IMG/VR virus record: IMGVR_UViG_3300027734_000092
Span: 1-54,079 of that record
DNA from: a virus
Reading direction: 5' to 3' (one strand)
DNA length: 54,079 bases
Positions 15,832 through 46,187 of the stretch are shown here, piece by piece (position 1 is the first letter of the stretch; each line of letters opens with the position of its first letter). The position numbers and the translations under genes are program-made. The notes under the pieces were generated by a model that searched no databases, was not told where the DNA came from, and saw nothing but the letters and a program-made list of their open reading frames with translations.

Positions 15832-16311
15832 ATGAAGAAACACACTACAGAACCCTTATGGAAGAGTATACGCGGAATTGGTCGACCACCAGCTCACACA
15901 TATACGCACGACACAGATCTAGCTGTATACAATCCTGGAAAGTTAGCTGAATCTATAGATCGTATACAGCAGTTAGATCCAGGACCCATTGAGCATTTAC
16001 CAGTATGTGTACCAAAGTGTCAGCGTTGTGGACTGGACGCAGATGTAGACTGGCCCAATCGTTGGTGGTGTCACTACTGCTGGGAAGAAGTTAAGAGTCC
16101 CATGAATCCCAACGCTATGATACCCAAATCATATGCTACAGCCACTACACTAGCACCATCACTAAGTGATCCTAGAGGTACTGAAATATGTCCCAAGTGT
16201 GCAGTATCATTTCGCCCTAGACTAGACAACACAGGATTTACCTGTCCAAGCTGTGGAGAAACTCATCGTCCACCACCCGCTCCTAGAGCAAGCCCTACTA
16301 ACGGATTCTAA
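15832..16311 (+). CDS. Double zinc-ribbon protein
   Basis: A 159-residue protein with two four-Cys modules: C63-x2-C66 with C80-x2-C83, and C120-x2-C123 with C138-x2-C141. Both look like zinc ribbons. The region between them and both ends are Pro-rich and probably disordered. Zinc ribbons of this kind serve nucleic-acid or protein binding; I cannot tell which. The ATG at 15832 is chosen because a late-like octamer sits just before it and there is no stronger start. The next gene begins one base after its stop. Confidence 0.75.
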   Translation: MKKHTTEPLWKSIRGIGRPPAHTYTHDTDLAVYNPGKLAESIDRIQQLDPGPIEHLPVCVPKCQRCGLDADVDWPNRWWCHYCWEEVKSPMNPNAMIPKSYATATTLAPSLSDPRGTEICPKCAVSFRPRLDNTGFTCPSCGETHRPPPAPRASPTNGF

Positions 16312-16312
16312 T

Positions 16313-16963
16313 ATGTCATATAAACCACAAACTCTACACGCACAAGATCAAGTACAGTATCGCCTTAAGGGTGTACAGGATCGTTTCTTATACTCATCAA
16401 CTGGCTATTGGTTTAAACCAGAAGATCTAGCTCGTTTACGAAGTTTAGTAAGCATAGATCGATTGAGTCAGGGCACAGTAGCAGAAGCTCGTGAGGGCGA
16501 TCAGATAGCCAATGTTAATATACGTGATGCATGGGTAGAGTTTATTGAACCTAACGAGGATAGTCGTTGGTTATACGATCGTGTAGGTGAAATCATACGC
16601 TATCACAATCAAACCTACTATGGCTACGATCTTACTGGCATCGAAACTCTACAGTTTAGTGAATATCGAGCACCCGCGGGACATTATGGAGCACACCTAG
16701 ATTGGGGAAGTAGCCGTAATGGAGTACAAGTACAATCACGTAAGCTATCCTTTACTGTGCAGTTAAGTGATCCTGACTCGTATGAAGGTGGGGATCTAGT
16801 TATACACGATGGGCAGGAACAGGATCCTGAGATTGTTCTAAAACGCCGTGCATTAGGGAGCATTATAGTATTCCCTAGCTGGGTCTTACACGAAGTTACT
16901 CCTGTTACAAAAGGAACTAGACGCTCGTTGGTAGGATGGTGTGTCGGGCCCGAATTTCGTTGA
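16313..16963 (+). CDS. 2OG-Fe(II) oxygenase, PKHD type
   Basis: A 216-residue dioxygenase that should use 2-oxoglutarate and Fe(II) to hydroxylate a substrate. The double-stranded beta-helix carries H128-x-D130 (YGAHLDW), the distal H193 in VFPSWVLHEVTPV and R203/R204 for 2-oxoglutarate (KGTRRSLVGW). This arrangement is that of the PiuC/PKHD hydroxylase group. The substrate is unknown. It follows the zinc-ribbon gene by one base and is followed by the structured element at 16971-17040. Confidence 0.9.
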   Translation: MSYKPQTLHAQDQVQYRLKGVQDRFLYSSTGYWFKPEDLARLRSLVSIDRLSQGTVAEAREGDQIANVNIRDAWVEFIEPNEDSRWLYDRVGEIIRYHNQTYYGYDLTGIETLQFSEYRAPAGHYGAHLDWGSSRNGVQVQSRKLSFTVQLSDPDSYEGGDLVIHDGQEQDPEIVLKRRALGSIIVFPSWVLHEVTPVTKGTRRSLVGWCVGPEFR

Positions 16964-18559: not shown

Positions 18560-18748
18560 ATGTTAAAACCAACAGCAAGTTTCAAACTCAGCAAACAAAC
18601 CAAACGTTTCATGTGTACTATTCGTGACCCGGAACAGCGTAACGCTTTCAAACGTGCTATGATCCAAGCAGAACTAGCGGCATTGATACAGCCCAAGCGT
18701 GAGAAGCGTACTGGTCCACGAGATAATACCATTACTGCTGAAGAGTAA
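18560..18748 (+). CDS. Small basic protein
   Basis: A 62-residue basic protein (MLKPTASFKLSKQTKRFMCT...), helical, with a Lys/Arg-rich C-terminal part. Nucleic-acid or ribosome binding is possible but not shown. CAGGAG lies 10-12 bases before the ATG; the stop makes a TAATG overlap with the oxygenase gene. Confidence 0.75.
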   Translation: MLKPTASFKLSKQTKRFMCTIRDPEQRNAFKRAMIQAELAALIQPKREKRTGPRDNTITAEE

Positions 18749-19371
18749 TGCTGTTTGACTTTCAGGGTCTGGATAATGCAAGTATAGAAGAATTACAGGG
18801 TAGTAAGATCTATACACTGGACAACTTCTACGCTGACCCCCATGAAGTTCTAGCATATATACTGAAACATCCAGCTAACCCATGGAAGTTATGGGAAAAG
18901 CCCAGTAATAATGGCATTGAGTTTATAGATCGTAGGCATAATTTTGAAGATGCAAATGTAGCACCCGTAGTCAAGGCCATAGCTAGCCATATAGGGCAAG
19001 AACCCGTAGACAATAATGTTGTTACTAACTGTATGAACTTTAAACCTAGCCCATTTAACGATTATCAAAACTGTTATTGGGCCCCGCATACAGATCTAGG
19101 CTATACGGCATTGATATATCTAAACGAAGATTATCAAGGGCCTGGCACTAATTTGTATGAGCAGTTAGAATCAGACCCACGAGAAGGCCCTGAACATTTT
19201 AAACCCTGGAGGCCCCGTAGCCGCTACCGATTGTTAAAATGTTTAGAAGCTAAATGGAATAGATTGGTTTTATTTGATGGTAAAAAGTTTGCTCATGGAA
19301 TGGCTGTAGAAGATACAAACTTCTTTGGACAAGTTACTAGAATTAACCAAGCGGTGTTCTGTCAAGATTGA
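18748..19371 (+). CDS. 2OG-Fe(II) oxygenase-like, DUF6445 type
   Basis: A 207-residue protein. HTDLGYTALIYLNEDYQGPGTNLY gives H114-x-D116, FAHGM gives H183, and TRINQAVFC gives R198, matching a cupin-type Fe(II)/2-oxoglutarate site of the DUF6445 kind. Substrate unknown. It is coupled to the basic protein gene by a TAATG overlap. Its TGA stop is embedded in the -35 TTGACA of the lysin promoter. Confidence 0.85.
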   Translation: MLFDFQGLDNASIEELQGSKIYTLDNFYADPHEVLAYILKHPANPWKLWEKPSNNGIEFIDRRHNFEDANVAPVVKAIASHIGQEPVDNNVVTNCMNFKPSPFNDYQNCYWAPHTDLGYTALIYLNEDYQGPGTNLYEQLESDPREGPEHFKPWRPRSRYRLLKCLEAKWNRLVLFDGKKFAHGMAVEDTNFFGQVTRINQAVFCQD

Positions 19372-20620: not shown

Positions 20621-21265
20621 TTAGTGTATAGTTTCAACACAGCCGTTTTTACTTTCGTCAAACGTTAGAATATAATCATAGACTTTGTTGAATACTTTAA
20701 GGTAAGCCTGCCGATCTTCATAAGGGAAATGCGGGCTTACTGAACTAGCAATGGCTCCTTTGTCATTATGATGGGCTAGTGCTACCATTAGATGTATTTG
20801 AGCGGCCTTTAATCCTGCATACCCTGCCATTGCTGTATAATCAGTACGATCGAATTTTAATGCCATGCCTGTAGTTAGGAACACTATCTTACTGCCTTTG
20901 GACATTTTCTTTAGTGCTTCTATTGATAATATATGGGGTAGTATTATGGTAAAGTGTAGATTAGTATGCCAACCAACAGAAGTAATTTTTGCTGTAGATG
21001 TAAAGTCTCTAGACATGGAGGCGTATCCATCCATGCGTCCATTGAATACAAAAATGTCTATGTTATCTATAGATTCAGTTAGCTTGTTGAATGCTTCAAC
21101 CATATACTGGCGTTCTGAATGATCTGCATATAGATGCTGAGGATCGCCTGTTCCATAATCTTTGTGAGATAGTATAAAAACATTATGGCCTTCTTGTCTT
21201 GCACGTAGGCAAAAGTCATTACCAAATTTACCAGGCTGACCGCCTCCAACTACTACTATATTCAT
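20621..21265 (-). CDS. Short-chain dehydrogenase/reductase-like protein
   Basis: A 214-residue Rossmann protein. VVGGGQPGKFG is the nucleotide-binding Gly loop, FVFNGRMDG occupies the NAG-like position, and YTAMAGYAGLKAAQIHLM carries the Y-x3-K catalytic pair. The usual catalytic Ser is replaced by TTGMAL, so activity may differ. It probably oxidises or reduces a sugar nucleotide or similar small molecule. AAAGGA precedes the ATG. Confidence 0.75.
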   Translation of the reverse strand: MNIVVVGGGQPGKFGNDFCLRARQEGHNVFILSHKDYGTGDPQHLYADHSERQYMVEAFNKLTESIDNIDIFVFNGRMDGYASMSRDFTSTAKITSVGWHTNLHFTIILPHILSIEALKKMSKGSKIVFLTTGMALKFDRTDYTAMAGYAGLKAAQIHLMVALAHHNDKGAIASSVSPHFPYEDRQAYLKVFNKVYDYILTFDESKNGCVETIH

Positions 21266-21313: not shown

Positions 21314-21934
21314 ATGAATTTTATTTGTAACATTCTTAATGAACAACGAGTCGTTGAGCTGGCATTGCCTGATACTCCTACTAAAATTGCTGTTTTTGTC
21401 AGCGGTGGGCTAGATAGTGCTATCCTATACTATCTCATACTGAAGGCTTCGATTGAACAAGGGGTTGCTCATCAAATATCTCCATTCGTGGTAAACAGGA
21501 CAGAGGGCTCTCGTTACTTTTCTAAGCTCGCTGTGGCACACGTTCACTCTCAATTTAACATGCCCTATGTTGATCCTATACTTGTCGGAGATCCTACTTT
21601 GCCCGGACACCTTCAAGTATTGTCTGGAGCTCAGAGTGCCCAATACATGGGATTTACACGCTTATATGGCGGTATAATTGCACAGCGTCCTGAACACACT
21701 ATTGGATACGAGCCACCACCAGCCGAGGAGACAGATATAATCAAACTGCCTTTTAAAGATTTAACTAAAGGGTATATAATTGATCTAATAGTACGTAATA
21801 AACAGGAAGCCTTGTTTTATCTTACACATAGTTGTTCAATATTGGAAATAGGCAAATGTAATACCTGCAACGGTTGTAATGAACGTAATTGGGGATTTGC
21901 TCAAGCAGGGCTAGTTGATCCAGGAACTATCTAA
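21314..21934 (+). CDS. QueC-like PP-loop protein
   Basis: A 206-residue protein. SGGLDS at 30-35 is the PP-loop ATP pyrophosphatase motif. The C-terminus has C174-x7-C182-x2-C185-x2-C188, like the zinc site of QueC, which makes preQ0 by amidation and dehydration of CDG. The middle is shorter and different from standard QueC, so a related ATP-dependent amidation or thiolation is possible. No QueD, QueE or DpdA partner is visible in the window. The 3' end overlaps that of a convergent radical SAM gene by four bases. Confidence 0.7.
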   Translation: MNFICNILNEQRVVELALPDTPTKIAVFVSGGLDSAILYYLILKASIEQGVAHQISPFVVNRTEGSRYFSKLAVAHVHSQFNMPYVDPILVGDPTLPGHLQVLSGAQSAQYMGFTRLYGGIIAQRPEHTIGYEPPPAEETDIIKLPFKDLTKGYIIDLIVRNKQEALFYLTHSCSILEIGKCNTCNGCNERNWGFAQAGLVDPGTI

Positions 21935-23010
21935 AAGTTATTGCGTTCAACAAACATTTCATTAGGCTTAGATATCTTTGATGACGTCCCACACATTACT
22001 ACACACATGGTCAATTGTTTGTTATTCCAAAATTTCTCCCAGGTGTTTTGATACAAGTCACTATTGATAATATCTTTAATAGAGTAGTGATAAGCATTTT
22101 GTGATGTAGTACCACCTAGAGCTTCGACTAGGGTGTGATATTCATTTAACATTTGCAACCTAATCTGAGTCATGCCAGCAATAGTATCTACCGGTATATA
22201 CGGTATTAGTCCTATATAACAACAAGGAAATACCTGACCGTATGAATCAATGTATATTTCATGTTGTTCCATCGATTTACATTCAATAACACTTTCTTTT
22301 GCAATATCTCGAAAATTAGTTATAGTGGTTCGATCGATAAATTTAATTTCGCTGTAACCGCTTGGCTCTAGAAGTCGGGTAGTATCCCCATTTTTATCAT
22401 AAACAGGAAAAGTTGGATCAAAGAAGAAACGGCCGCTGTCCTTCATCGAAAATGATTCAAATCCCAACTCATTAGCTAATTGCTTGACTTCGGCAACTTG
22501 ATGCTCATTGTGTTTAAATCGAATAAATGCCCACTCAGCAACACCACCGGCTTGTATAAAATCGTAAGCATTATCTATGATCTTATCAAAGTCAGTACCT
22601 ACCCGATACAAGCTGTGTGTATCTTCTAATCCGTCAATAGCAAAAACTACCCTATGATTTTTTGGCAGAGCTTTGGCTAACTGTTGCCACCAGTCCTTAG
22701 ATCTAAGGCTTCCGTTGGTATAGATCCATACGTGTAAATTGGGATTAACAGACACAGAGTATTCAATCATTGCGATTAGATCATTGTTTAGTAAAGGATC
22801 ACCAAAATTACCGCAGAAATAATACTTGTCAATTTGATTCAGTACATCCTCAGTCATAATACTTTTAAACTGTTCCAAAGACCAGCTAGATAATTTTATC
22901 AATGGATTAGCTAGTCCGCCATGTATATTTCGCTGACATTGAGGACAACTGGCTTGACAGTTATTAGTAATCTCAAGATGTATCTGTTTTAATTCATTAA
23001 ATTTAAACAT
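21931..23010 (-). CDS. Radical SAM protein with SPASM-like C-terminus
   Basis: A 359-residue protein. C18-x3-C22-x2-C25 (NCQASCPQC) binds the [4Fe-4S] cluster that cleaves SAM; FCGNFGDPLL is the family's GGE-equivalent. Later cysteines IECKS, VFPCCYIG and MCVVMCG suggest a SPASM/twitch auxiliary cluster region. It is closely similar in layout to the protein at 24978-26243, so the two are paralogues. It is the last gene of a seven-gene operon. SPASM enzymes usually modify peptides, but no precursor is obvious. Confidence 0.85.
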   Translation of the reverse strand: MFKFNELKQIHLEITNNCQASCPQCQRNIHGGLANPLIKLSSWSLEQFKSIMTEDVLNQIDKYYFCGNFGDPLLNNDLIAMIEYSVSVNPNLHVWIYTNGSLRSKDWWQQLAKALPKNHRVVFAIDGLEDTHSLYRVGTDFDKIIDNAYDFIQAGGVAEWAFIRFKHNEHQVAEVKQLANELGFESFSMKDSGRFFFDPTFPVYDKNGDTTRLLEPSGYSEIKFIDRTTITNFRDIAKESVIECKSMEQHEIYIDSYGQVFPCCYIGLIPYIPVDTIAGMTQIRLQMLNEYHTLVEALGGTTSQNAYHYSIKDIINSDLYQNTWEKFWNNKQLTMCVVMCGTSSKISKPNEMFVERNNF

Positions 23011-23016
23011 ATTAGA

Positions 23017-23655
23017 TTATGGATGGTATTCTAGCAGTTCTTCAATAGATTTATTAAGGGCAACAGTAACTATCAATCTAGGTCCCGGAGTAAAATGCAC
23101 AGTATGAGCACAGTCTGTTTTGACAAATGCGCTAGGTGTGTATACGTTTCTTGCTACTAGCTCAGGAGCTCCTAGAAAAGCGTATCGTCCCTGTGTGTCT
23201 CCGCCCGGCACACTCTTGTTGGTATATTCTCGTCCGTTAGGTGCAAGAAATTTAGTTTCTTCTATCCTAGGGTCATCATACTCAAAACCGCCCCACCAAA
23301 TTAGAGGATTACCTGGATTTCCCATAATCATAACGTTTAACCTTGACCGTATTCTATAGACTGCTCCGGTATTAGGATCAACTTTTGTATCAATATGTGG
23401 ATCTGGATTACCTAACGTACACATAAAAACATTAATCCCACCAAATTCAGTATCACATCCGTATTGATTTAAAAAAGCATTTAGTTCTCGGCCTACGATG
23501 CTGTTACGCCATTCAGCCTGTGCTTCCGGAGAGTACTGAGTCAGATCAGTGTTATGTCCTATGTTGCCCGTTAATCGATCTTTATATCGATCCAACACCC
23601 ATCCCATGGCGTTGTTAGAAAAATTAAACGTTAGTGAATGATAGAATTTCGTCAA
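23017..23655 (-). CDS. 2OG-Fe(II) oxygenase, paralogue A
   Basis: A 212-residue protein. NPDPHIDT gives H87-x-D89; DCAHTVHFTPGPRLIVTV gives the distal His (H184 or H187) and R193. It is a tandem paralogue of the next upstream gene. The start is TTG at 23655, inside the upstream gene's end, because MTKFYHSLTF aligns with the paralogue's MTAETFYHSLDF; the next ATG is 16 codons later. The 32-base overlap encodes both the end of one protein and the start of the other. Confidence 0.8.
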   Translation of the reverse strand: MTKFYHSLTFNFSNNAMGWVLDRYKDRLTGNIGHNTDLTQYSPEAQAEWRNSIVGRELNAFLNQYGCDTEFGGINVFMCTLGNPDPHIDTKVDPNTGAVYRIRSRLNVMIMGNPGNPLIWWGGFEYDDPRIEETKFLAPNGREYTNKSVPGGDTQGRYAFLGAPELVARNVYTPSAFVKTDCAHTVHFTPGPRLIVTVALNKSIEELLEYHP

Positions 23656-24310
23656 TTGATTTATCCAATGGAACTGTTACTATTAGTCTAGGAGTAGGAC
23701 TACAATTTACAGTATGTGTACAATCTGTTTTAACAAACCCAGAAGGTGTTAGTATATTTTTTGCAATATGACTAGGCTCTCCGACAAATTTTAATCTATC
23801 TGCTTTATCATTACCCGGAACATTTCTACAGGTAAACGGAAATCCAGTACTTAGATCGATATAGTCAACATCTGCTAGTAACGGGTTGCCATAATGGAAT
23901 TGTTCCCACCACACCATTTCGTCCTCTGGATTACCTAGTACCATGATGTTTAATCTTGTCTTGATAACTCGTTCTGTGGTATAATCTGTACCCCAAACTT
24001 TATTGATAAGGCTTTTGCACAAGATATCAATATGTGGATTTCCTGGATAATATTCGTCTCTGTTACATATAAATGTAGTAATTCCTGCCATGCTGGTATC
24101 ACAGCCATAGGTTCTTAAAAAATCTTTAATTTCAGTACCTACTATGCTTGAATGCCATTCATCTTGTGCTTGTTGTGAAAACAGTTCTGATGTATCGTCG
24201 TGATGAAAGAATTTTTCTTTAAATTTTTCGTGGTATCTATCTAATACCCATTCTTTAGCTTTCGGAGAGAGATCGAAATCTAAGGAATGATAAAATGTTT
24301 CTGCGGTCAT
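23624..24310 (-). CDS. 2OG-Fe(II) oxygenase, paralogue B
   Basis: A 228-residue protein starting MTAETFYHSLDFDLSPKAKE, paralogous to the previous entry. GNPHIDIL gives H93-x-D95; DCTHTVNCSPTPRLIVTV gives the distal His and the 2-oxoglutarate Arg. ATG at 24310 is chosen by alignment with the paralogue and GGAGAC upstream; the longer open frame runs into the preceding gene. Tandem duplication inside a radical SAM operon suggests two similar hydroxylation steps. Confidence 0.85.
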   Translation of the reverse strand: MTAETFYHSLDFDLSPKAKEWVLDRYHEKFKEKFFHHDDTSELFSQQAQDEWHSSIVGTEIKDFLRTYGCDTSMAGITTFICNRDEYYPGNPHIDILCKSLINKVWGTDYTTERVIKTRLNIMVLGNPEDEMVWWEQFHYGNPLLADVDYIDLSTGFPFTCRNVPGNDKADRLKFVGEPSHIAKNILTPSGFVKTDCTHTVNCSPTPRLIVTVPLDKSIDEILSFTNV

Positions 24311-24314
24311 TGTG

Positions 24315-24938
24315 TTAGTCTCCAGTTGGCATGTTTTGCCATTCTTCTTCAGTGATGGATCGCTTGTCCCAGGACGCCCATGTTCCTGGAACATGTTCAT
24401 AATATACATGATATTGCCAGCATTTTTGCACATCATAAGGACAGGTTTGGATGTATCCTTCTCCCTTTTTAAAACCAGGAATAGCTTTAGATATTGCAGT
24501 ATGATACACTTTCCACCATCCTGCTGATTCTTTCTTTTCACGAGCTTGTATTGTTAGGAAATATGCATCGAACTGTTTGATCGCATTTAGTGGGGTCATT
24601 ACATGAACCTTTGCTAGATTGAACACATCGATCATTCCTCGAAAACTTCTTTGTCTATATTTAGGAAATAGGTATGTCCGGTGCATGTGTATAGCAATAT
24701 TGGATGGATATCGACCGTCATTGAACAGTCCTCCCATCCCAACTGGTTCGTGTGTAATTTTATCATAAATTACCACATACCCTACATGCTTTTCTAAAAC
24801 TAAAAATTTTGGAGTATAAATTTCTCGAAGCCAGTTATCCTCACTCAAGCATAGTTCTCGTACTTCTTCAAATTCAGCGCACGATTCGTGATATACCTTG
24901 TGATAAAAATTATCAGTGTTTAAAGACAGTGGATTCAT
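24315..24938 (-). CDS. Possible GNAT-fold acyltransferase
   Basis: A 207-residue protein of uncertain kind. The order of strands and helices around FLVLEKHVGYVVIYDKITHE, with PVGMGGLFNDGRYPSNIAIHMH and a basic FPKYRQRSFRG where acetyl-CoA would bind, is like a GNAT acyltransferase. The match is by pattern only. It sits in the middle of the radical SAM operon with its own late-like octamer nine bases upstream of the ATG and no ribosome binding site. Confidence 0.6.
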   Translation of the reverse strand: MNPLSLNTDNFYHKVYHESCAEFEEVRELCLSEDNWLREIYTPKFLVLEKHVGYVVIYDKITHEPVGMGGLFNDGRYPSNIAIHMHRTYLFPKYRQRSFRGMIDVFNLAKVHVMTPLNAIKQFDAYFLTIQAREKKESAGWWKVYHTAISKAIPGFKKGEGYIQTCPYDVQKCWQYHVYYEHVPGTWASWDKRSITEEEWQNMPTGD

Positions 24939-24947
24939 ATAGGAAAT

Positions 24948-24955
24948 TATTTATT
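24948..24955 (-). promoter_or_regulatory. Late-like octamer AATAAATA
   Basis: Nine bases before the ATG at 24938, in the only non-coding gap of the radical SAM operon. Confidence 0.5.
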
Positions 24956-24977
24956 TTACGGTTGTGCTAGGCGACAA

Positions 24978-26243
24978 TCATTTGCTCTCCTGATGCATAC
25001 TATTCAATCTATTAAAATATACTCGATCAATACGACTCTCCTCTCCACAGATGCTGGAGCAGTAGGCCATCTTACCTTCTTTAACGCTGGGTTTTGTCCA
25101 CGAGTCGGCAAATACTCGATCTAGATGGCCTGCATCTAGTATCTCCGTTAAACTATGTTTATTAAGATCAAAATGATCCCACCCGTAGTCGCTCATATGT
25201 TTGTGTAATTGTAAACTTTGATAGTCTGTAAAAACTCCGCTGATGTGAGTTCCTATATAACAACAAGGTAATACTCTGCCAAAGTTATCAACAAATATTT
25301 CTTTGTCTTCGTTGAATATGTTGGCCTTGCACTTTACTTCGCAGGCATCAAATTTTTCTGTATTTTCCTTGTTGATGATTTCGTAGACCTTGTTGACCTT
25401 GTCCGAATAGTTGTCATTTGATTTGGTCTTCTTGAGTTCTCTATATTCGTCAAAGGTAAATGGAAGCATGCCTGTTTCTACTACGCCTGTAGGCTCTTTT
25501 AAATTCCTATACTCGGGATTCTTAGGAGCATTGATAGTGTACTCAATCTCACCGTTTTTGTTAACGGCATTCAATGCTTTGAGTTCTTTACCATTGTCTA
25601 CTCCTAAAGCCTTCTTAGGAACAAAAATTACAAAACCCAAGTCCTTGGACATCTGTCGAGCTTGTTCAACTTGATGTTCGTTGTGTTCAAATATTAGATA
25701 CTCCCATACAGCATTGCCACCTGCATCAATAAATGCCTTGACGTTGGCCATTAAGTTTTTCCATTTAACATTTCTTCGATATAGGTGATTAGTATCTTCT
25801 AGGCCGTCAATGCTGAATACCACACGCCAGCAGTCTAAACTCTTTTGATTATGTTTGGCAAATACTGCCCCTAGCTTTGCCCACCACTCAGGGTTACGCA
25901 TACCTCCGTTGGTGTGTATTTGCAGTACGAACTCGCTCTTTCGTTTCCTCCACCAAGAAGTTTTTGTATGCTTGTGGATGTATTCGCATATCTCTAGGGT
26001 GTCGCTGGCCATGCAAGGATCGCCCTGTGTTCCGCAGAACATTATCTTAACTAGACCGGATAACAACTTTGGAGGAAAGAACTCTTTGAACTTATCTAGT
26101 TTTATTTCTTGTATTGTTAGATCGGGGCGAGGCAACGGAGAGTTTCTAAAAAACCTTACACACATTGGACAGGCCGCGTTACAGGCATTGGTCAGCTCAA
26201 TGTGTATTTGTCTTACTTCTCTGGTTTTCCAAAAATCAGTCAT
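24978..26243 (-). CDS. Radical SAM protein with SPASM-like C-terminus
   Basis: A 421-residue protein. C21-x3-C25-x2-C28 (ACNAACPMC) is the SAM cluster motif and MFCGTQGDPCM the GGE-equivalent. Further Cys lie at DACEVKCKAN, VLPCCYIG and YCSSICG, consistent with auxiliary clusters. It is longer than the paralogue at 21931-23010, mainly through an insert of about 60 residues near 215-290. It starts in an eight-base overlap with the preceding radical SAM gene, so the proteins are made together. Confidence 0.85.
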   Translation of the reverse strand: MTDFWKTREVRQIHIELTNACNAACPMCVRFFRNSPLPRPDLTIQEIKLDKFKEFFPPKLLSGLVKIMFCGTQGDPCMASDTLEICEYIHKHTKTSWWRKRKSEFVLQIHTNGGMRNPEWWAKLGAVFAKHNQKSLDCWRVVFSIDGLEDTNHLYRRNVKWKNLMANVKAFIDAGGNAVWEYLIFEHNEHQVEQARQMSKDLGFVIFVPKKALGVDNGKELKALNAVNKNGEIEYTINAPKNPEYRNLKEPTGVVETGMLPFTFDEYRELKKTKSNDNYSDKVNKVYEIINKENTEKFDACEVKCKANIFNEDKEIFVDNFGRVLPCCYIGTHISGVFTDYQSLQLHKHMSDYGWDHFDLNKHSLTEILDAGHLDRVFADSWTKPSVKEGKMAYCSSICGEESRIDRVYFNRLNSMHQESK

Positions 26244-27426
26244 TGGTCAATCCTATAATTCTTGCAAACTCAGGAAACACTTGTGTATAGTCCTGCTTTC
26301 TATATTCATCGTGTACTTTAATTTCTTCTAAGAACTTAGTCCACATATTTGCATCCGGTATACCGTTTTCAATAAACCCAACTATGCCCGGTAGCTGTCT
26401 CCATATAGAATCTTCTTCGGGCTTTGTTGGCTCCGGGATAGTCTTTAGTTTTTTAACGACTTCCTGTTTAACATCCTCAGGCATGATGCCGATATTAAAA
26501 TGTCTTGGAGCATGTACTAGATTTAAGAAACAACCAAACCCGTTATAGTTCTTGCGGAACTCCTCTATGATCTCTGGTAGATAGTATACATTTAAATTAC
26601 TTAAAGTAATAAACCATCCTAGTGTTAAATTGCCTGCTTGTGTCCTAGATTTGGCCATGTTGGCCTTAACCACTTCCCAGTCGGCCAGATAACGCATGAA
26701 TTCAAATTGCCGGTCTGTACCATCTATACTAAAATGTACAGATACCTTTTTAAAATGTTGCCATAGTTCTGTTTGCTTAGGCCACAGGGTTCCGTTAGTA
26801 GCATAGTGTACTTCTATATCTTTAGCATAACCTTTTTCAACAGCAAGCTCTAGAATGCCCCACATTTTTTTACTCATAAAAGGCTCGCCACCGTAGAACT
26901 CTAGATGTTTTATAGTATGCAGATGGCTTTCCAAGTCCGGCCAGAATGCGCTTTCATCTTCGAAGCTCTTGTAGAATTTTTTAATATGGGTTTGATACTT
27001 CTTAATGCTTAGAATTTTATTGTACTGTGTTTCAAAGCCCTCGTCGATCCATTGACTGCTCGAGTGCGGTCCGCAAGTCCTACATCGTATGTTACATTGA
27101 TTACCTAGGCTAGCTTCAAAGTAGACTAGACCTTGTTGTTGGTCAAGACGTTTGTTATCTCTAATACGTTTGCTTTCGCCGCCACCGTCTTCTTCTTCCC
27201 AGCAACGGACACAGCCTGGATTGCGTACATCATTGTTGCAGTCAGCTTGTAATTGTAGAAGCTCAGGATGATTAAGATGTTGCTCTATCGTCTTGTCGCC
27301 TAGGACATATTTTGCGTCCGGGTCTTGACTAACGTACATACAGCAGGGGCGAGTAGTACCATCGTTGCTTGCGCTTAAACTATGGAACGCATTTATGCAC
27401 CAAGTTTTCTTATTGTCCGGACTCAT
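26236..27426 (-). CDS. N-twitch radical SAM protein
   Basis: A 396-residue protein. It has an N-terminal Cys module (C10, C28, C29, C63, C72, C75) typical of twitch domain-containing radical SAM proteins. The SAM cluster C111-x3-C115-x2-C118 (QCNIRCRTCGP) and EFYGGEPFMS follow. Such proteins recur in marine and freshwater phages with unknown substrates. It overlaps the genes on both sides (17 bases upstream, 8 downstream), the tightest coupling in the operon. Confidence 0.85.
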   Translation of the reverse strand: MSPDNKKTWCINAFHSLSASNDGTTRPCCMYVSQDPDAKYVLGDKTIEQHLNHPELLQLQADCNNDVRNPGCVRCWEEEDGGGESKRIRDNKRLDQQQGLVYFEASLGNQCNIRCRTCGPHSSSQWIDEGFETQYNKILSIKKYQTHIKKFYKSFEDESAFWPDLESHLHTIKHLEFYGGEPFMSKKMWGILELAVEKGYAKDIEVHYATNGTLWPKQTELWQHFKKVSVHFSIDGTDRQFEFMRYLADWEVVKANMAKSRTQAGNLTLGWFITLSNLNVYYLPEIIEEFRKNYNGFGCFLNLVHAPRHFNIGIMPEDVKQEVVKKLKTIPEPTKPEEDSIWRQLPGIVGFIENGIPDANMWTKFLEEIKVHDEYRKQDYTQVFPEFARIIGLTND

Positions 27427-28768
27427 AGGTTTCCTTACATAACTGGTAGAAATCTTTGTACTCTGGAAATAGTTCCAACATGTTAGTACCTAATCTACGA
27501 TCGTTCTCTGTAAAAAACACATAGAAATCCCTACGACCTCTACGTATCTTGTCTGCATCAACTGGATTAGTTCTCATGTACTCGGTAACACGTTTAAACT
27601 TAACAATTTCTGATAGTTCAAACCACTCTGCATTGTCTTCCATATATTTGAGAGTACGATCCATGTAAGGCATGAAGTCCGGAGTAAGGATGTTGATCAT
27701 CCAATGCGGAGGGTCTTTAAGATAAGGTATATCTAAATGAAATAAGTCAGCGCCGTATTCTTTGCGCCATTCTACTACCTTCTCTAACAGGCTTTGGAAG
27801 TTGGTTACACACAGAACATTGAATGTACACATGAAGTTTACTCGCTTCTTCATCTTTACAATTTCTAACATATTGCGCTCCCAGTGAGCACAGTCTAATC
27901 CTGTGCGCATATACTCAGCTTGCGCTCCCCAACTGTCTATAGATGTAAACACATTGAGAGTTTTGATTTTCTTCTCTTGTGTGAGTTTCTTAACTTGTTC
28001 AATAAGCCTATCGACTCTGGAAAAACTCACACCCAAGTTACTATTAATACTAATTTCTAAGTTGGGTGCAGGCTCTCGATCTAATAGTTCAAAGAACTGC
28101 ATCGCCCCTTTGTTCATCAACGGCTCTCCACCGGTGATACGTAGGGTGTGCAGATCATTGCGTAGGCTAGGCCACCACTTCCAGAAAGCATCTATGTAAG
28201 GATTATCGTCCTTAGGTCCATAGTATGTTCCATGTTGTAAAAAATCTATGCTGTATTGCGGATGAGTGATATCATAATCACCGTGTTCTTTAACTTCTTC
28301 CATCCACATTGTGCTAGCCTGCGGGCCGCAATAACCACAACGGAAATTACAGTTGTTACCAAAACTTACTTCCAGATACTTTGGATTTATATCAGCATCC
28401 CAAGGTAACTGTGCAAGTTTCTCAATGGCTTGCTCTGCCCAAGGATTGCCGCCGCTGTGCAACACTCTATCACTAGCGTGTTCTCCTGGCAAATCTTCAA
28501 TGTTCCAGCAGTAGTAGCATTCTTTAGGACGCTCGCCCTCTAGCATCTGCTTGCGTTGTTCTTTCTTGTGTGCAGTATTGTGTAACGCCGCTGGGTTTAC
28601 TGCAATTTCTTCTAGTTGAATATGGTGTGGTTTAGGGTGGTAGCAACTGTGATTGTCCCCTGTATGCAAATACAAAGTTTGATGTAACCATTTCATAGTG
28701 CAATAACCAGGCCCTACGGTGTTTAATCTATCTTTTACATTCTTGAAAAATTGTATTTGTTGTTCCAT
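27410..28768 (-). CDS. N-twitch radical SAM protein
   Basis: A 452-residue protein starting MEQQIQFFKNVKDRLNTVGP. The N-terminal Cys module has C23, C42, C84 and C87; the SAM cluster is C140-x3-C144-x2-C147 (NCNFRCGYC), and RITGGEPLMN is the GGE motif. It is a diverged partner of the gene at 26236-27426 and could form a pair with it. The ATG at 28768 is five bases after a CTTAAATA octamer with no ribosome binding site; this is the operon's first gene. Confidence 0.85.
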   Translation of the reverse strand: MEQQIQFFKNVKDRLNTVGPGYCTMKWLHQTLYLHTGDNHSCYHPKPHHIQLEEIAVNPAALHNTAHKKEQRKQMLEGERPKECYYCWNIEDLPGEHASDRVLHSGGNPWAEQAIEKLAQLPWDADINPKYLEVSFGNNCNFRCGYCGPQASTMWMEEVKEHGDYDITHPQYSIDFLQHGTYYGPKDDNPYIDAFWKWWPSLRNDLHTLRITGGEPLMNKGAMQFFELLDREPAPNLEISINSNLGVSFSRVDRLIEQVKKLTQEKKIKTLNVFTSIDSWGAQAEYMRTGLDCAHWERNMLEIVKMKKRVNFMCTFNVLCVTNFQSLLEKVVEWRKEYGADLFHLDIPYLKDPPHWMINILTPDFMPYMDRTLKYMEDNAEWFELSEIVKFKRVTEYMRTNPVDADKIRRGRRDFYVFFTENDRRLGTNMLELFPEYKDFYQLCKETYESGQ

Positions 28769-28781: not shown

Positions 28782-28810
28782 TACAAACATAACTACTTGA
28801 TTGCATTCTG

Positions 28811-28823: not shown

Positions 28824-29537
28824 ATGATCGATATATTAACTCAAAAACTACAATCCTGCATTGAACAAGATATTTGGAATTCTGACGATTCTGAAAATAC
28901 TAATTTGTTAATATCGCCTAACAAAGATGTTGTACTCGAATGGACAGACACAGGTTTTTTTGAAGTTAAAAAAGAAAGAGTTATGTTCAATAACTGTGTG
29001 ACCGGGCATACTTATTGCCTAAGAAAGGATGGAACCATAGATGAATGGACAAAATTTCAATTATGGTATTTGGAAGGAGTAAACAGTAAGTTGTTTAGAA
29101 CTGATGTTCCTTTGTTTAGAGATGAAGTTGAAATCAATAGCGAATCTTGGGATTATACTCATTGGATGAGACCGGGCGCTGGCGTAGGCGAGTTAACTAC
29201 TCATCAGGTTTTTTCTAATCCTGCCGCACTACCTGATTTTTTAAACGATGTTATTGACATATATTATGATGCTATGTTAGCAATTATTAAAGTTGCAGAA
29301 GAATATAACGATCCGAGAATTCCAGATATAACTTTTAGACAGGTTATGAAAGACGATCGAGGTTATTATTTTATTAATAATTTTGATACGTGGAATCGAA
29401 CTCCTTACAACGTTATTACAGCATCTATTAAATTAGGTCAAATGCTGATCGGATGGTTCGGACCTGCTATACCAGAATGGTTCCTCGATGACTGGACTGC
29501 CCGCGCATCAGCAAAATGGAACACTCTATATGAATAA
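28824..29537 (+). CDS. Hypothetical protein
   Basis: A 237-residue acidic, Trp-rich protein (10 or more Trp) that I do not recognise. Helices DFLNDVIDIYYDAMLAIIKV and GQMLIGWFGPAIPEWFLDDW dominate the C-terminal half. It is divergent from the radical SAM operon and shares its promoter region, so it may be a substrate or partner. No ribosome binding site; a leaderless start is predicted. Confidence 0.7.
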   Translation: MIDILTQKLQSCIEQDIWNSDDSENTNLLISPNKDVVLEWTDTGFFEVKKERVMFNNCVTGHTYCLRKDGTIDEWTKFQLWYLEGVNSKLFRTDVPLFRDEVEINSESWDYTHWMRPGAGVGELTTHQVFSNPAALPDFLNDVIDIYYDAMLAIIKVAEEYNDPRIPDITFRQVMKDDRGYYFINNFDTWNRTPYNVITASIKLGQMLIGWFGPAIPEWFLDDWTARASAKWNTLYE

Positions 29538-29697: not shown

Positions 29698-30239
29698 ACG
29701 ACTCCGATAGTCATATACCTAGTAAATTCCCAATCTGGGTAAACAAACTGCTTTTCGCCCGCAAATACATATTCGCTCAGCGGGTACTTTTCCTTAAACT
29801 CTTCTAAACTAGATACATTCCCAACATGATCACCGTGTTCCATGTTGTTGCCTTGTAGAACAACTTTGGTCCCTTTACTAAGATTATTAAACCAATCCAT
29901 GCTTTCAAAGTGTTCGGTGCTGGTGTTAATTACTAGTCCTCTAAACTCTGTTTGAAATGCATTGCAGTCACCTGTGATCGCTTTGAACTTCCAGTTCTGC
30001 CATACCCAATTCTCGTTAATCATATCTGCGATAGGTTCGCAACTAGGGTCGATATCTATACTACGAATTTTGTGTAGTTTAAATTTACCACGAGACAGCA
30101 ACAAGAATGCAGTCATAGCATGCCATCCGCCGTAGAGGTAAACATGATTAGCTTCCCAACCTGTTTTTTCTAGTTCTTCACAGAGCCAGACTTTGCTACC
30201 TATCTGTCCACTGCTGAAAGCATCTTTGTCTATGTGCAT
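29694..30239 (-). CDS. SAM-dependent methyltransferase-like protein
   Basis: A 181-residue Rossmann-type protein. VYLYGGWHAMTAFLLL takes the place of SAM motif I, IRSIDIDPSCEPIADMIN supplies the acidic strand-2 residues, and AITGDCN and LVINTSTEHFESMDW follow in the expected order. Motif I is atypical (G-G-W rather than G-x-G-x-G). It overlaps the preceding glycosyltransferase by ten bases. Substrate unknown. Confidence 0.7.
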   Translation of the reverse strand: MHIDKDAFSSGQIGSKVWLCEELEKTGWEANHVYLYGGWHAMTAFLLLSRGKFKLHKIRSIDIDPSCEPIADMINENWVWQNWKFKAITGDCNAFQTEFRGLVINTSTEHFESMDWFNNLSKGTKVVLQGNNMEHGDHVGNVSSLEEFKEKYPLSEYVFAGEKQFVYPDWEFTRYMTIGVV

Positions 30240-31366
30240 GAGCGTTCTTCCGTAAACTTGCTAGACAACCAATCGTAATCATTTATTTTATTAAGGGCAA
30301 CAATATTGTTTTTGTTTGCATTGCCGTAACTAGCACCTGCCAAAGCACCAGCTATAGAATACTCACATCCTACAGTGGTCCAAGTACGTAATCTTTCTTC
30401 TGTTTCTTTGTCGTCTTGATTTGTAATAAGTTTTGAACTAAGTTTAACACACTCTCTAAATGCGCTCTTCCATGTGCTAAATGGATCAGTATCAAACCTA
30501 GTCTCACATGCAATAGTAGGCATGACTTTAACTGGACCTACGCTAGTTGATACATCAATGACGTTGTCCTTTACATCTTGAAAGTGTATCTTAGAGAATA
30601 ACTTAACTCCCCCATACCCATACTTTAATCCGTTAACAGGATTATGACTGTGCCATATATGAACTGTTTCTCTATCTTGGATAGGAGGAACATAGTCAAA
30701 TTGGAAGTTTTTAATATACGCATCGGCGTCGACTACATAAAACATATCAGTCTCTGCGATTAAAGATGCCGCGATGTGGGCATTATAAATTCCTTTTACA
30801 CCGATCACTCTTTTGGCTCTAGGGCATACAGCGTATAATCTTTTCCAGTTATCTTCTGTAGTTGTTTCATTATAAACTAAAAATATAACATCAAATCGAT
30901 TGTTGATGTATTCAGTATCAGCAACTCCGATAACTTTTCGTCCGCTAGCTGATTCTATATAGGATACAGTTACCGCATCGACTTCTTGCCCACCAGTTAA
31001 CGAAGTATCGTAAGTCCATACGTGCTTGTAAGGCAGATCCCAAGCAGGAACCTTATAGTCTAATATCTTTGAATTTACTATGGCATATTTGTTTGCCTCG
31101 ATAAGATGCGGAGTTAATCTTAGCTGGACGATTTGTACATGTCCGTTCCACTTTTTCGGGAACCGTTTAGCGATCCAGCCTTCACCGATTTTATATTTGA
31201 TACAGTTATCAGTTAATTGGATATCTATATCAATTAATTTTAGTATCGAAGGATCTAATTCTGGATTAACAACAATAAAATGTTCTTCATCTGTACACAG
31301 TTGACTCAGTACTTGGTCGCTCGACCAATCAGTAGATTTAACTAGGTTAGAATCGATTATCTTCAT
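30230..31366 (-). CDS. GT-A-like glycosyltransferase
   Basis: A 378-residue protein. VIFLVYNETTTEDNWKRLYA, then KRVIGVKGIYNAHIAASLI and FYVVDADAYI, form a GT-A nucleotide-sugar fold with a DxD-type metal site (DAD). NPVNGLKYGYGGVKLFSK is a probable acceptor loop. The gene at 31970-33046 has the same pattern, so they are paralogues. The N-terminal 120 residues are an extra beta-rich part. It starts one base after the oxygenase stop. Confidence 0.75.
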   Translation of the reverse strand: MKIIDSNLVKSTDWSSDQVLSQLCTDEEHFIVVNPELDPSILKLIDIDIQLTDNCIKYKIGEGWIAKRFPKKWNGHVQIVQLRLTPHLIEANKYAIVNSKILDYKVPAWDLPYKHVWTYDTSLTGGQEVDAVTVSYIESASGRKVIGVADTEYINNRFDVIFLVYNETTTEDNWKRLYAVCPRAKRVIGVKGIYNAHIAASLIAETDMFYVVDADAYIKNFQFDYVPPIQDRETVHIWHSHNPVNGLKYGYGGVKLFSKIHFQDVKDNVIDVSTSVGPVKVMPTIACETRFDTDPFSTWKSAFRECVKLSSKLITNQDDKETEERLRTWTTVGCEYSIAGALAGASYGNANKNNIVALNKINDYDWLSSKFTEERSCT

Positions 31367-31367
31367 G

Positions 31368-31973
31368 TTATTCCCAAGGGACTATTTGGAAACTCATCAT
31401 TAGTATCTTTCTATCTTGAGATACCTTGTTTACCCAATGCCTGCTGTTTTCTGTGTTTAACCAAATAACGCCTCTACCTTTCTTCCCAGGTGCGCGGTAC
31501 TGAGATTCTTTTGTTTTTCCAAAAAATGTTTTTTTATTTGAACTTACTACAGTTAGTGATTCGTTATCGAATACGTTTAAGTATCCTGCCGCATAGACAG
31601 ATCTATTATCAAGATGTTGATCCATCTTATAGCCTTTTAGATCTGTTATTAATGCAAAATAAATGTTAATTTGCCTGGCTATTGGGATCGGAATATCTGG
31701 CCACCTTTTTTCCGTGTCGATATCTAAGAACTGATTGACTAACGAAAGTTTAGATTCCTCCATTCTTTGTTTAAAAATACTAAAAGCTGAATTATGTATT
31801 TTATTACTCTTAAGAATAAGTCGTTTATCTAATTCTTTATATTCGAGCCCCTTAATGTTATCCTCTGATCCCCACTCCGGGTAGTTAGCAAATAGCACTT
31901 GTAGATCGTCAACAGGATAGTCAAATTCTACTACTGGTGACTTCTCATTAGCTTTGATGAATTCTATAGTCAT
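31368..31973 (-). CDS. 2OG-Fe(II) oxygenase
   Basis: A 201-residue dioxygenase. DQHLDNR gives H120-x-D122, TENSRHWVNKV gives H179, and SQDRKILMMSFQ gives R188. It lies between two GT-A paralogues, with an ATGA overlap upstream, so hydroxylation of a glycan or of the glycosylated target is a plausible role. Confidence 0.85.
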   Translation of the reverse strand: MTIEFIKANEKSPVVEFDYPVDDLQVLFANYPEWGSEDNIKGLEYKELDKRLILKSNKIHNSAFSIFKQRMEESKLSLVNQFLDIDTEKRWPDIPIPIARQINIYFALITDLKGYKMDQHLDNRSVYAAGYLNVFDNESLTVVSSNKKTFFGKTKESQYRAPGKKGRGVIWLNTENSRHWVNKVSQDRKILMMSFQIVPWE

Positions 31974-33046
31974 AGATCAAGTAAATCCCAATTAGTATCT
32001 AGTTCTTTAACCATATGATCGTATCTAGGCGGGTTGACCCAAACTTCTTTAAAGAATCGACTCTGTTCCGGACTATAATATTGCATAGGTAATCCTAGTT
32101 TTAAATTTAACTGCTTGCCCAACATTACAATTTGTTCTAATGGATCGTTATAAGATTTCTCTTTAAACAACTCATTGAGATAATCAAAGTCTCGTACCTG
32201 CAGATAATCCCAGTCAGTGCAGTTAGTCATATAACATCCTAGTCTTGCACCGTATATTGCCCAAAGTCCTTGATCTACATCTGATCCTATATTACACCAT
32301 ATCAGCAATCGTTGATAGTTGCGTCGGACTAATTGATGTTTAGGATTAATAAAATTTTGTTTAACTCCGTTGTTCAGTGTCATCTTAACACCTTCACGGA
32401 ATCCTGCTCGCCACGCCTGTAGAGGACTTGCGTTGTTATAACTAACAGAATGCAAGTTAGCCATTTGTTTGTATCTATTGTTCCAGCAGAAATCTAACTG
32501 TGATGCAGGGTCTTCTGCTAGCTCGTGTGTCTTCATGCCCAACACAAAGTCCTTAGTCCAACACTTTAATCCGCCATTGCCATAGACTAGACCGTTAATG
32601 ATATTTTTACCGCACCAAGATAGTTGTTTGTCTTCTAAATCTGTTCCTGCAAAGTTTATTTCAACGTCAAAGAATTTTGGATCAACGATGTTATCCCCGT
32701 CCACAGTAATAAATCTATTAGTAGTACTAAGTTCAGCGGCCGCTTTGTGTGCGGCATCACTGCCTTTAACTCCGTGTACACGTTTTGCCCAAGGTGCTTT
32801 AGATAACAAGTCCGCCCAATTACGATCAGCATTGGGTTCGTCGTAGCTAATGAATATACAATCTATTTCGCTAAGATTAATTTTATTTACGATCGCCGGT
32901 CCTTCGTATAGATCGATAGTTAACGGGTTTAGGGCATGAAGTTGGCCATCAACTATTGTAAAATCTTCAACCTTCCAGTACCCTGATTTGAAATTATCAA
33001 TTTCAATATCAGATAGTTCGATTTTAAAATGCTCTTGATAATTCAT
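31970..33046 (-). CDS. GT-A-like glycosyltransferase
   Basis: A 358-residue protein. CIFISYDEPNADRNWADLLS, then KRVHGVKGSDAAHKAAAEL and RFITVDGDNIVDP, form the GT-A core with a DGD metal motif. IINGLVYGNGGLKCWTK matches the acceptor loop of the paralogue at 30230-31366. Its first 40 residues are nearly the same as the last 40 residues of the preceding dioxygenase, a clear partial tandem duplication. TAATG overlap with that gene. Confidence 0.75.
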   Translation of the reverse strand: MNYQEHFKIELSDIEIDNFKSGYWKVEDFTIVDGQLHALNPLTIDLYEGPAIVNKINLSEIDCIFISYDEPNADRNWADLLSKAPWAKRVHGVKGSDAAHKAAAELSTTNRFITVDGDNIVDPKFFDVEINFAGTDLEDKQLSWCGKNIINGLVYGNGGLKCWTKDFVLGMKTHELAEDPASQLDFCWNNRYKQMANLHSVSYNNASPLQAWRAGFREGVKMTLNNGVKQNFINPKHQLVRRNYQRLLIWCNIGSDVDQGLWAIYGARLGCYMTNCTDWDYLQVRDFDYLNELFKEKSYNDPLEQIVMLGKQLNLKLGLPMQYYSPEQSRFFKEVWVNPPRYDHMVKELDTNWDLLDL

Positions 33047-33171
33047 TAGGTTCCTTGTTTTTGTAGTTCACCGTTAACCACGATAAAATCTTCAAACTTC
33101 CAGTAACCCGATTTGAAATTAATAATTTCAATCTCAGATAGTTCGATTTTAAAATACTCTTGATAGTCCAT
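32927..33171. repeat. Tandem duplication of a gene start
   Basis: About 105 bases from 33046 downward (start of the glycosyltransferase) are repeated from 33171 downward (end of the dioxygenase), 125 bases apart, at roughly 85 percent identity by eye. Both copies are read in the same frame sense and encode the same peptide pattern, DYQEYFKIELSEIEI versus NYQEHFKIELSDIEI. Confidence 0.85.
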
Positions 33172-34266
33172 TAAGTCTCTTGCTATAGGGGAGCGAGTCC
33201 CATCTGGCATTTTAAATCCTTTAATACCTGCCAAGTTGACATAATATTTGATTTCCTCTTCATATTTTTTGGCAGTTGGTTCGTGCAAGTATGGTTGCCA
33301 GAATCCTTCTTGTAAATTACTATAATCGTGTTGAATACGATAACACAATCTGTCTTTAATATCTCCAAGCCTGCGATGCAATGTAATGCTGTTGTCAAAC
33401 AAACAAAAATCATTGTTGCTCTTGTACCAATGATCGTAAATGTATTTGTCTACAAACAATTCTTTATCAATTTCTGCAAACACACTATCACTTTCTTCTT
33501 TAGTCATTCCCTTAATACCGTAGATAGTATTAGCACTATAATGTAATCCAATAATACCACCTGGGCTACGCATAACGATAGGAATTTCGATATCATCTTC
33601 GGGACACATATTGGCATGCATGACTTCGTCTTGCTCCATGCGCAGTCCGGGATTGATACGTCCGGGCGTAAATCTATGTATTAGAATCATTTCATCTAAT
33701 TCACTTCGAAATGCATTGCTAACATTTTCATAATAATCGGGAGTGGTTAAAAATCCTGTGCTAGAACCAATCATGTTCTCTGCCCCTAACAATGCCACAC
33801 CTGGTGTAAATGTCAATGTACCACTTTCATTACTATGCCACAATAACTCACCTTCCGCAAACATGCCTAAGGCATTGCCTTTTTCGTCACGCTTGCCAGT
33901 GACCCGCATAACATGTTTCCCGTCGGGTGTTAGTTCTTGCATGTTGAATATACTTTTTAATCTAATGCGGTCAATTTCGTCTACGCTAGGATCATCTTGC
34001 ATAGCTAACTGTGCTACCTGGGTGAATGTTTTGCCAGGGTATTTTTTAAGTATTAGGTAACGGACACCGTATCTTGTATCACCAAACTTTGTACAAAAAT
34101 CAGTTTGCTTGTCCCAAGTTAGTTTGCAATCACGTATAATAGTGACTAGATTTTGTAGATGAAGTTTTCCAATCTCTGTCCACTCGTCGTCTGTGATAGT
34201 AGTAAAGTCTACATCATCTATAAAGATTCCAAATCTACCCAATCCTGGGATTTTGGTTACTTTCAT
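33046..34266 (-). CDS. TauD/TfdA-like dioxygenase with fused tail
   Basis: A 406-residue protein. The N-terminal part resembles TauD/TfdA-type 2OG-Fe(II) enzymes. LLWHSNESGTLTFTPGVALL holds H144 with N146 where Asp is usual, ITLHRRLGD the distal H297, and YRIQHDY R310. The Asn in place of the acidic iron ligand may weaken or alter activity; E147 might substitute. Residues 366-406 (from MDYQEY) duplicate the start of the next gene, so the protein end is a fusion scar. GGAGATAAT precedes the ATG. Confidence 0.8.
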   Translation of the reverse strand: MKVTKIPGLGRFGIFIDDVDFTTITDDEWTEIGKLHLQNLVTIIRDCKLTWDKQTDFCTKFGDTRYGVRYLILKKYPGKTFTQVAQLAMQDDPSVDEIDRIRLKSIFNMQELTPDGKHVMRVTGKRDEKGNALGMFAEGELLWHSNESGTLTFTPGVALLGAENMIGSSTGFLTTPDYYENVSNAFRSELDEMILIHRFTPGRINPGLRMEQDEVMHANMCPEDDIEIPIVMRSPGGIIGLHYSANTIYGIKGMTKEESDSVFAEIDKELFVDKYIYDHWYKSNNDFCLFDNSITLHRRLGDIKDRLCYRIQHDYSNLQEGFWQPYLHEPTAKKYEEEIKYYVNLAGIKGFKMPDGTRSPIARDLMDYQEYFKIELSEIEIINFKSGYWKFEDFIVVNGELQKQGT

Positions 34267-36061: not shown

Positions 36062-36065
36062 AGGA

Positions 36066-46168: not shown

Positions 46169-46187
46169 TATAATTTAGGATAGAAAA

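Follow-up and report, generated by a model that had tools for sequence, protein, structure and literature searches.

What do radical S-adenosylmethionine (SAM) genes, lined up with putative oxygenase genes, produce in a phage? We addressed this question in the linear IMG/VR record IMGVR_UViG_3300027734_000092 (54,079 bases, probably a fragment), which is called here, in its full length, the window. Seven consecutive open reading frames (ORFs), g1 to g7, span positions 28768 to 21931 on its minus strand, as the initial annotation had stated, and four radical SAM genes within 7 kb are beyond chance. The multi-step modification pathway which that annotation proposed for the run is, on sequence grounds, partly supported as a function class, since the same enzyme kinds recur in different phage lineages and in Bdellovibrionia chromosomes; however, the seven genes did not turn out to be a unit, and a glycosyltransferase core upstream of them had been left out. 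Our preferred reading, to which we give a probability of about 45%, is that the whole gene set synthesises and tailors a glycan, most likely on the phage's own fibres, with target and chemistry both being candidates.

The radical SAM genes lie behind a glycosyltransferase core

The genes concerned are the following, in the order of the minus strand:

36926 to 37771, minus: f7 copy 1, putative fibre or virion protein and candidate target, 25% Ser+Thr
36066 to 36899, minus: f7 copy 2, putative fibre or virion protein, 20% Ser+Thr
35756 to 36091, minus: f22, conserved protein of ~110 amino acids (aa) between f7 and the GT8 genes, 31 relatives
34977 to 35759, minus: GT34977, GT8-like glycosyltransferase, clusters with GT34289
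34289 to 35005, minus: GT34289, GT8-like glycosyltransferase
33046 to 34266, minus: TauD/TfdA-type oxygenase (PF02668, 47 bits), occupying the position where gene X (~200 aa) usually lies
31970 to 33046, minus: GT31970, predicted GT-A fold protein of the conserved core
31368 to 31973, minus: 2-oxoglutarate (2OG)-Fe(II) oxygenase-like protein (PF13640, E 0.0024, below the cut-off)
30230 to 31366, minus: GT30230, GT-A-like paralogue of GT31970
29694 to 30239, minus: m29694, methyltransferase-like by motif (conserved GGW, SIDIDP-type), usually directly upstream of g7 relatives
27410 to 28768, minus: g1, N-twitch radical SAM protein, 452 aa from the ATG (458 aa from TTG 28786)
26236 to 27426, minus: g2, N-twitch radical SAM protein, g1 paralogue
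24978 to 26243, minus: g3, radical SAM protein with a SPASM-like C-terminus, g7 paralogue
24315 to 24938, minus: g4, 207-aa protein confined to this group
23624 to 24310, minus: g5, 2OG-Fe(II)-type oxygenase by motif, g6 paralogue
23017 to 23655, minus: g6, 2OG-Fe(II)-type oxygenase by motif, TTG start
21931 to 23010, minus: g7, radical SAM/SPASM-like protein

Relatives of GT31970 were collected in a scan made without the radical SAM genes, from which the best 80 of 595 were taken. A recurring order was obtained, f7 - f22 - GT34977 - GT34289 - X (~200 aa) - GT31970 - GT30230. The stretch from f22 over two GT8 genes and X to GT31970 was present in most of the 80 loci, and f7 was found upstream of GT31970 in 54 of the 55 loci having at least 5.5 kb of upstream sequence. 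Over all GT31970 loci, a total that takes in loci found via radical SAM genes, 343 radical SAM ORFs were located downstream of GT31970 and none upstream. When the scan loci with more than 5 kb of downstream sequence were considered (n = 54), radical SAM genes were present in 34 and absent from 20, and their number within 9 kb behind the core varied from 0 to 6. On the GT31970 tree, which carries only Shimodaira-Hasegawa-like approximate likelihood ratio (SH-aLRT) support and some long branches, at least three changes in radical SAM presence were needed. Since the core also occurs without radical SAM genes, these form an accessory block behind it, in appearance an exchangeable set of tailoring genes added to a fibre-linked glycosyltransferase core.

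Conservation of g1-g7 was followed on locus maps made by tblastn of the window genes against the relatives' loci and with hidden Markov models (HMMs); ORFs were called by a simple script and gene labels give the best HMM match. The complete order was found in the window and in four contigs, belonging to two lineages only: one contig matches the window exactly in the genes that the two share, and three are of a sister lineage with ~75-92% identity. Eight more loci (L008-L013, L015, L032) have the order g1-g2-g3 without that of g4-g7. Relatives of the g5/g6 type occur in L122-L126, with no radical SAM gene recognised in the stretches examined, and the g7 family extends to at least 597 viral stretches, usually arranged m29694-g7. 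The idea of the seven genes as a natural unit was rejected, since the exact set is confined to this small group, g5/g6-type genes stand alone elsewhere and a conserved glycosyltransferase core lies upstream. Gene order, which the initial annotation had named as the check on a shared pathway, is thus kept for f7-f22-GT8-GT8-X-GT31970 and, over a narrower range, for g1-g2-g3; g4-g7 show no such conservation. In L015, a single fused glycosyltransferase-radical SAM ORF of 759 aa adjoins a duplicated g1; being the only fused ORF and having this neighbour, it was not used as a functional link.

Within the run, g1 starts at ATG 28768, with a TTG also present upstream at 28786, and the start of g5 is likely at ~24310 rather than at GTG 24541. 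The claim that overlaps join most of the genes did not hold: coding regions overlap at three of the six junctions (g1/g2 by 17 bases, g2/g3 by 8, g5/g6 by 32 with the TTG start of g6), and two more, g4/g5 and g6/g7, are separated by 4 and 6 bases, with 39 bases between g3 and g4. The pairs g1/g2 (27% identity), g3/g7 (32%), g5/g6 (43%) and GT30230/GT31970 (28%) are paralogous, so the cluster grew partly by duplication. The minus-strand run is broken by a plus-strand ORF of 237 aa at 28824-29537, which is retained in the sister lineage (43% identity) and gave no informative match in Pfam, PHROG or NCBIfam.

Identities of the proteins encoded by g1-g7

The CX3CX2C motif is kept in g1, g2, g3 and g7, all of which pass the Pfam Radical_SAM cut-off (33.7 bits for g3), and HxD...H-x8-R is invariant in g5/g6 in an alignment of seven sequences; the cluster and iron-site motifs reported initially were thus found again. 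Assignment of g1 and g2 to the N-twitch radical SAM proteins was also confirmed, with 302 and 308 bits to NF033640 (N_Twi_rSAM, cut-off 170) over nearly the full length and, for g1, an invariant N-terminal Cys. With 37 and 46 bits, g3 and g7 are non-members. Both had been described as SPASM-like radical SAM proteins, of which the radical SAM part stands, while their Pfam SPASM scores (13.8 bits for g3 and 20.2 for g7) stay under the 21.5-bit cut-off; since auxiliary cysteines are invariant across the g7 family, we call g3 and g7 SPASM-like only. The tandem oxygenases g5 and g6 likewise keep their designation by motif, but no Pfam, PHROG or informative NCBIfam family was matched.

No match to g4 was found in Pfam, PHROG or NCBIfam, which leaves the earlier suggestion of an acyltransferase unsupported. 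Its relatives were found in four viral contigs only, and a relationship to GCN5-related N-acetyltransferases (GNAT) was discarded, as g4 proved dissimilar to the single phage protein of GNAT appearance with which it was compared.

The core enzymes and the putative fibre protein f7

The AlphaFold2 (AF2) model of GT31970, with a predicted local distance difference test (pLDDT) score of 79, had 37 Foldseek PDB matches at E<=0.001 (best 3.4e-5), mostly glycosyltransferases or other sugar-nucleotide enzymes. They include RmlT, SunS and a PBCV-1 enzyme whose PDB entry names major capsid glycosylation (E 3e-5 to 1e-3). On this model, GT31970 is placed in the GT-A fold class. The GT34289 profile matched glycogenin (GT8) chains with a best E of 2.7e-4; the window protein itself had no Pfam GT8 match, and m29694 no significant database or PDB match. 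No likely transmembrane segment was detected in the core or in g1-g7, the highest 19-residue mean hydropathy being 1.46. Two proteins of the core were considered as precursors of a ribosomally synthesised and post-translationally modified peptide (RiPP) and rejected: f22 is conserved along its whole length, without a variable core, and gene X products, of 170-450 aa, read like other phage proteins.

The position of f7, its Ser/Thr content, duplication and predicted beta content suggest a putative fibre protein. Its AF2 model (pLDDT 85) is helical at the start and then beta-rich, and matched no solved fold. Proteins of 480-700 aa are encoded upstream of f7, and the relative there in L030 matches a PHROG virion structural family. 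Further along the window, long repeat-rich fibre-like ORFs extend over 44411-50075; directly behind them, an ORF at 50077-51645 resembles by eye an S8 subtilisin-like protease, possibly for virion maturation.

Related phages and chromosomes

Radical SAM genes were present in all 18 related records, with up to 19 in one record of 178 kb. Since the five largest of the 18 match PF07068, the T4-type major capsid family, the phages carrying these clusters are likely T4-like myoviruses. The glycosyltransferase core co-occurs with f7/f22 in diverse phage contigs, some of them binned with marine metagenome-assembled genomes (MAGs) of several phyla. Among cultured phages, no close homologue of GT31970, m29694, f7, f22 or g6 was found, and only distant ones of g1, g2, g7 and GT34289. 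In the cultured Vibrio phage K566, two GT8 genes and a weak GT4 match are interleaved with four radical SAM genes, of which one is sub-threshold; GT31970 had no match there at the level searched. Campylobacter phage CP220 carries, close to its baseplate genes, a radical SAM run accompanied by an amidinotransferase and two genes of the nucleotide-sugar-transferase fold, and in Pelagibacter phage Mosig MoaA-type, carbamoyltransferase, aminotransferase and Asp_Arg_Hydrox genes adjoin a tail fibre gene.

Arrays of N_Twi_rSAM genes were also found on Bdellovibrionia chromosomes, with 33 matches in one of the five genomes covered by the profile search. Neighbours of the arrays in genome G019 encode Asp_Arg_Hydrox (PF05118, 52.8 bits), a carbamoyltransferase (246 bits) and an amidinotransferase nearest to the inosamine-phosphate amidinotransferase StrB1 (E 1e-29). 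Many N_Twi_rSAM genes stand in tandem in G019 (L267, L268, L271) and G020 (L156, L269), the L156 array adjoining the ATP synthase operon. In the Bacteriovorax-like loci L133, L137, L138, L140, L150 and L272 a g1 homologue lies beside a protein of ~310-325 aa that is nucleotidyltransferase-like by eye; its L272 copy has no Pfam match. In L270, genes that by eye are CysN/CysD/CysC-like, QueC-like, sulfotransferase-like and B12-type radical SAM-like stand beside N_Twi_rSAM genes; a sulfated product is possible there, and the sulfotransferase-like protein has no Pfam match.

A glycan as the candidate product

We propose that g1-g7 may be the variable tailoring half of a longer unit, from 38156 to 21931 and nearly all on the minus strand. 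The GT8-like enzymes together with GT31970 and GT30230 would build, in the cytoplasm, a short glycan on Ser/Thr of f7 or of a neighbouring tail protein. Twitch/SPASM-like radical SAM enzymes could then epimerise, deoxygenate, oxidise or C-methylate the sugar, the 2OG enzymes would hydroxylate it and the methyltransferase-like protein would cap it, with steps running as in aminoglycoside clusters, and IscU and two A-type carriers (listed below) would supply the Fe-S clusters. Exchange of tailoring genes would alter the outer chemistry of the fibre and, with it, host binding or resistance to attack. A sugar is preferred over a peptide chiefly because carbamoyl-, amidino- and glycosyltransferases and twitch/SPASM radical SAM enzymes are the classes of aminoglycoside sugar tailoring. 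Overall, the evidence favours a glycan pathway over one acting on a free peptide, DNA or RNA. Between virion and host as the target, we favour the virion, since the core is inherited with f7/f22 across diverse phages, is soluble and belongs to the same run as fibre-like genes.

Several observations weigh against this reading. The closest solved sequence relatives of g1/g2 are MoaA, viperin and SkfB, all weak matches and none of them sugar-tailoring. Foldseek template modelling (TM) scores of GT31970 are low (0.2-0.4), so its fold class is assigned and its specificity is not. For f7, BFVD gave three convincing viral entries only, all uncharacterised, and its roles as virion member, glycosylated protein or target are those of a candidate. 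The genes g4-g7 are restricted to the lineage, and g7-type loci often lie apart from visible fibre genes in the stretches examined. Gene adjacency is no proof of a pathway, and the core could act on a host molecule, adjoining fibre genes because both serve host recognition.

This last possibility leads to the strongest rival, that the cluster remodels a host surface glycan, either the lipopolysaccharide (LPS) O-chain or a sugar precursor, during infection and keeps competing phages from superinfecting, with radical SAM and 2OG enzymes tailoring that sugar. It agrees with the published reading of the glycosyltransferases in the pelagimyophage host-recognition island (PMC7029224), and with the Bdellovibrionia arrays, which accompany Asp hydroxylase, amidinotransferase and carbamoyltransferase genes with no phage fibre involved. 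We consider it unlikely, given that no likely membrane protein is encoded in the core or g1-g7 and that the scanned window proteins included no recognised flippase, polymerase or lipid-carrier glycosyltransferase; moreover, the core is inherited with f7/f22 in contigs associated with MAGs of several phyla, whereas host glycans differ. A nucleic-acid hypermodification, with a QueC-like protein feeding a deazaguanine or a glycosylated base, appears very improbable. Phage glycosyltransferases can act on DNA, a QueC-like PP-loop protein adjoins g7 and QueD-family proteins were found in five of eight related records. Nevertheless, TGT (tRNA-guanine transglycosylase)/DpdA was not matched in the window or in the eight records (QueE was not searched for), QueD was not matched in the window, which is probably a fragment, no base-modifying partner was seen in the module, and the position of the block is fixed behind fibre-like genes.

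If the radical SAM and 2OG enzymes modified a virion protein directly at its amino acids, as in RiPPs and with no glycan, epimers, C-C or thioether links and hydroxylated residues would result. Peptides are frequent substrates of SPASM/twitch enzymes and of Asp/Asn hydroxylases, f7 is part of the same gene run, and models of tungsten-oxidoreductase and sactipeptide maturases match g7 weakly. We regard such action as improbable, because all the maturase-model scores are far under their cut-offs, no precursor-like short ORF was noticed in the cluster and the constant partners are glycosyltransferases, not proteases or transporters. No PqqD/RiPP recognition element (RRE) match was obtained in the window or in the eight related records, although a missing Pfam match says little against an RRE. 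As the records may be incomplete, this absence and those of TGT/DpdA and QueD are not strong. Peptide and nucleic-acid targets are therefore less likely. It seems quite improbable that the genes are unrelated auxiliaries of a hypervariable island that serve general host metabolism and share no substrate, as proposed for the Campylobacter phages CP220/CPt10 (PMC2853527). The lineage restriction of g4-g7 and the solitary g5/g6 relatives would fit, but the strict one-sided placement (343 versus 0), the conserved core order and the repeated finding of glycosyltransferase and radical SAM genes as neighbours, also in phages that are unrelated, argue against it.

The wider statement that large phages build their own tail-fibre glycan and vary it through exchangeable radical SAM and 2OG enzymes is tentative, and we hold it as rather doubtful. 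If true, the outer surface of phages would be diversified through sugar chemistry in addition to protein sequence, as the chemical equivalent of genetic variation in tail fibres, and such clusters would be a large untapped source of sugar-modifying radical enzymes. It would also be, to our knowledge, the first virion tailored by radical SAM enzymes. Islands rich in radical SAM genes have been on record for large phages since 2010, with no function proven; their strict placement behind a glycosyltransferase core tied to fibre-like genes makes a testable claim, namely unusual sugars on the virion or host surface.

Other genes of the window

The following genes flank the run:

37830 to 38156, minus: A-type Fe-S carrier (PF01521, 49.6 bits)
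38208 to 38585, plus: IscU/NifU-N Fe-S scaffold (PF01592, 181 bits), divergent from the f7/glycosyltransferase run
39160 to 39495, plus: second A-type Fe-S carrier (PF01521, 70.5 bits)
21314 to 21934, plus: QueC-like PP-loop ATPase (PF06508, 28.6 bits), convergent with g7, travels with the lineage
20621 to 21265, minus: short-chain dehydrogenase/reductase (SDR)-like oxidoreductase (PF00106, 20.5 bits, sub-threshold), travels with the lineage
16253-16963, 18748-19371, 31368-31973, 33046-34266, 38519-39163, 39422-40147 and 41948-42574: further 2OG-Fe(II) oxygenase-like genes

The Fe-S assembly genes were dismissed as an obligatory partner, as seven of eight related records lacked matches to both families. 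A QueC-like PP-loop protein also occurs in other phages (L121, L122, L123), with no queuosine partners recognised nearby. The seven oxygenase-like genes beyond g5/g6, several of them sub-threshold in Pfam, are many for a stretch of 54 kb. In the window itself, no gene for a capsid protein was recognised.

Comparison with known systems

The host-recognition island of pelagimyophages, in the portion of the paper that describes it, combines genes for tail fibres and GT8-type glycosyltransferases with radical SAM cassettes, which vary from one close genome to the next, and its authors take the glycosyltransferases as modifiers of the host LPS O-chain (PMC7029224). The window resembles it as a T4-like island with fibres, GT8 and radical SAM genes and differs, as far as that description goes, in having a fixed f7-f22-GT8-GT8-X-GT31970 core, with radical SAM genes on the downstream side of it only. 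In CP220/CPt10, an exchangeable module of ~10 kb close to baseplate genes contains five radical SAM genes, an amidinotransferase and genes of the nucleotide-sugar-transferase fold, and a role in host metabolism was proposed for it (PMC2853527). The likeness to the window lies in this make-up; the radical SAM sequences are other ones (27% to g7), and no 2OG pair was noted there. Environmental genomes of marine T4-like phages carry IscU, A-type carriers and up to 12 radical SAM genes, which were taken as Fe-S metabolism (PMC5332604). They share with the window the presence of Fe-S assembly genes together with many radical SAM genes, and differ in that, within the portion of the paper considered, no tie to a glycosyltransferase core or fibre genes is described.

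The Bdellovibrionia arrays (G019, G020, G021, G023) are similar in their tandem N-twitch radical SAM genes and different in being cellular, with no f7/f22 and no window-type GT8 core seen. In streptomycin synthesis, StrB1-type amidinotransferase acts on sugars or cyclitols. NeoN and BtrN are twitch/SPASM radical SAM enzymes of aminoglycoside tailoring (PMC10991966). The analogy between aminoglycoside tailoring and the phage and Bdellovibrionia kits is one of enzyme classes, namely radical SAM enzymes and StrB1-type amidinotransferase; in sequence, no match of g1/g2 to the NeoN or BtrN structures was found.

Virion glycosylation has a precedent in mycobacteriophages, where glycans carried by subunits of the capsid and tail tube were associated with phage-encoded glycosyltransferases, according to the summary of that work (Freeman 2023, in PMC12619734). 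The likeness, to the extent of that summary, lies in the phage-encoded glycosyltransferases; the phages themselves differ. We know of no radical SAM or 2OG tailoring in mycobacteriophage virion glycosylation. Radical SAM-rich phage islands have already been described, without a proven product, and the open-licence papers searched contained no statement of a core-plus-tailoring architecture. It is this architecture, a glycosyltransferase core followed by a block of putative tailoring genes, that the present analysis adds.

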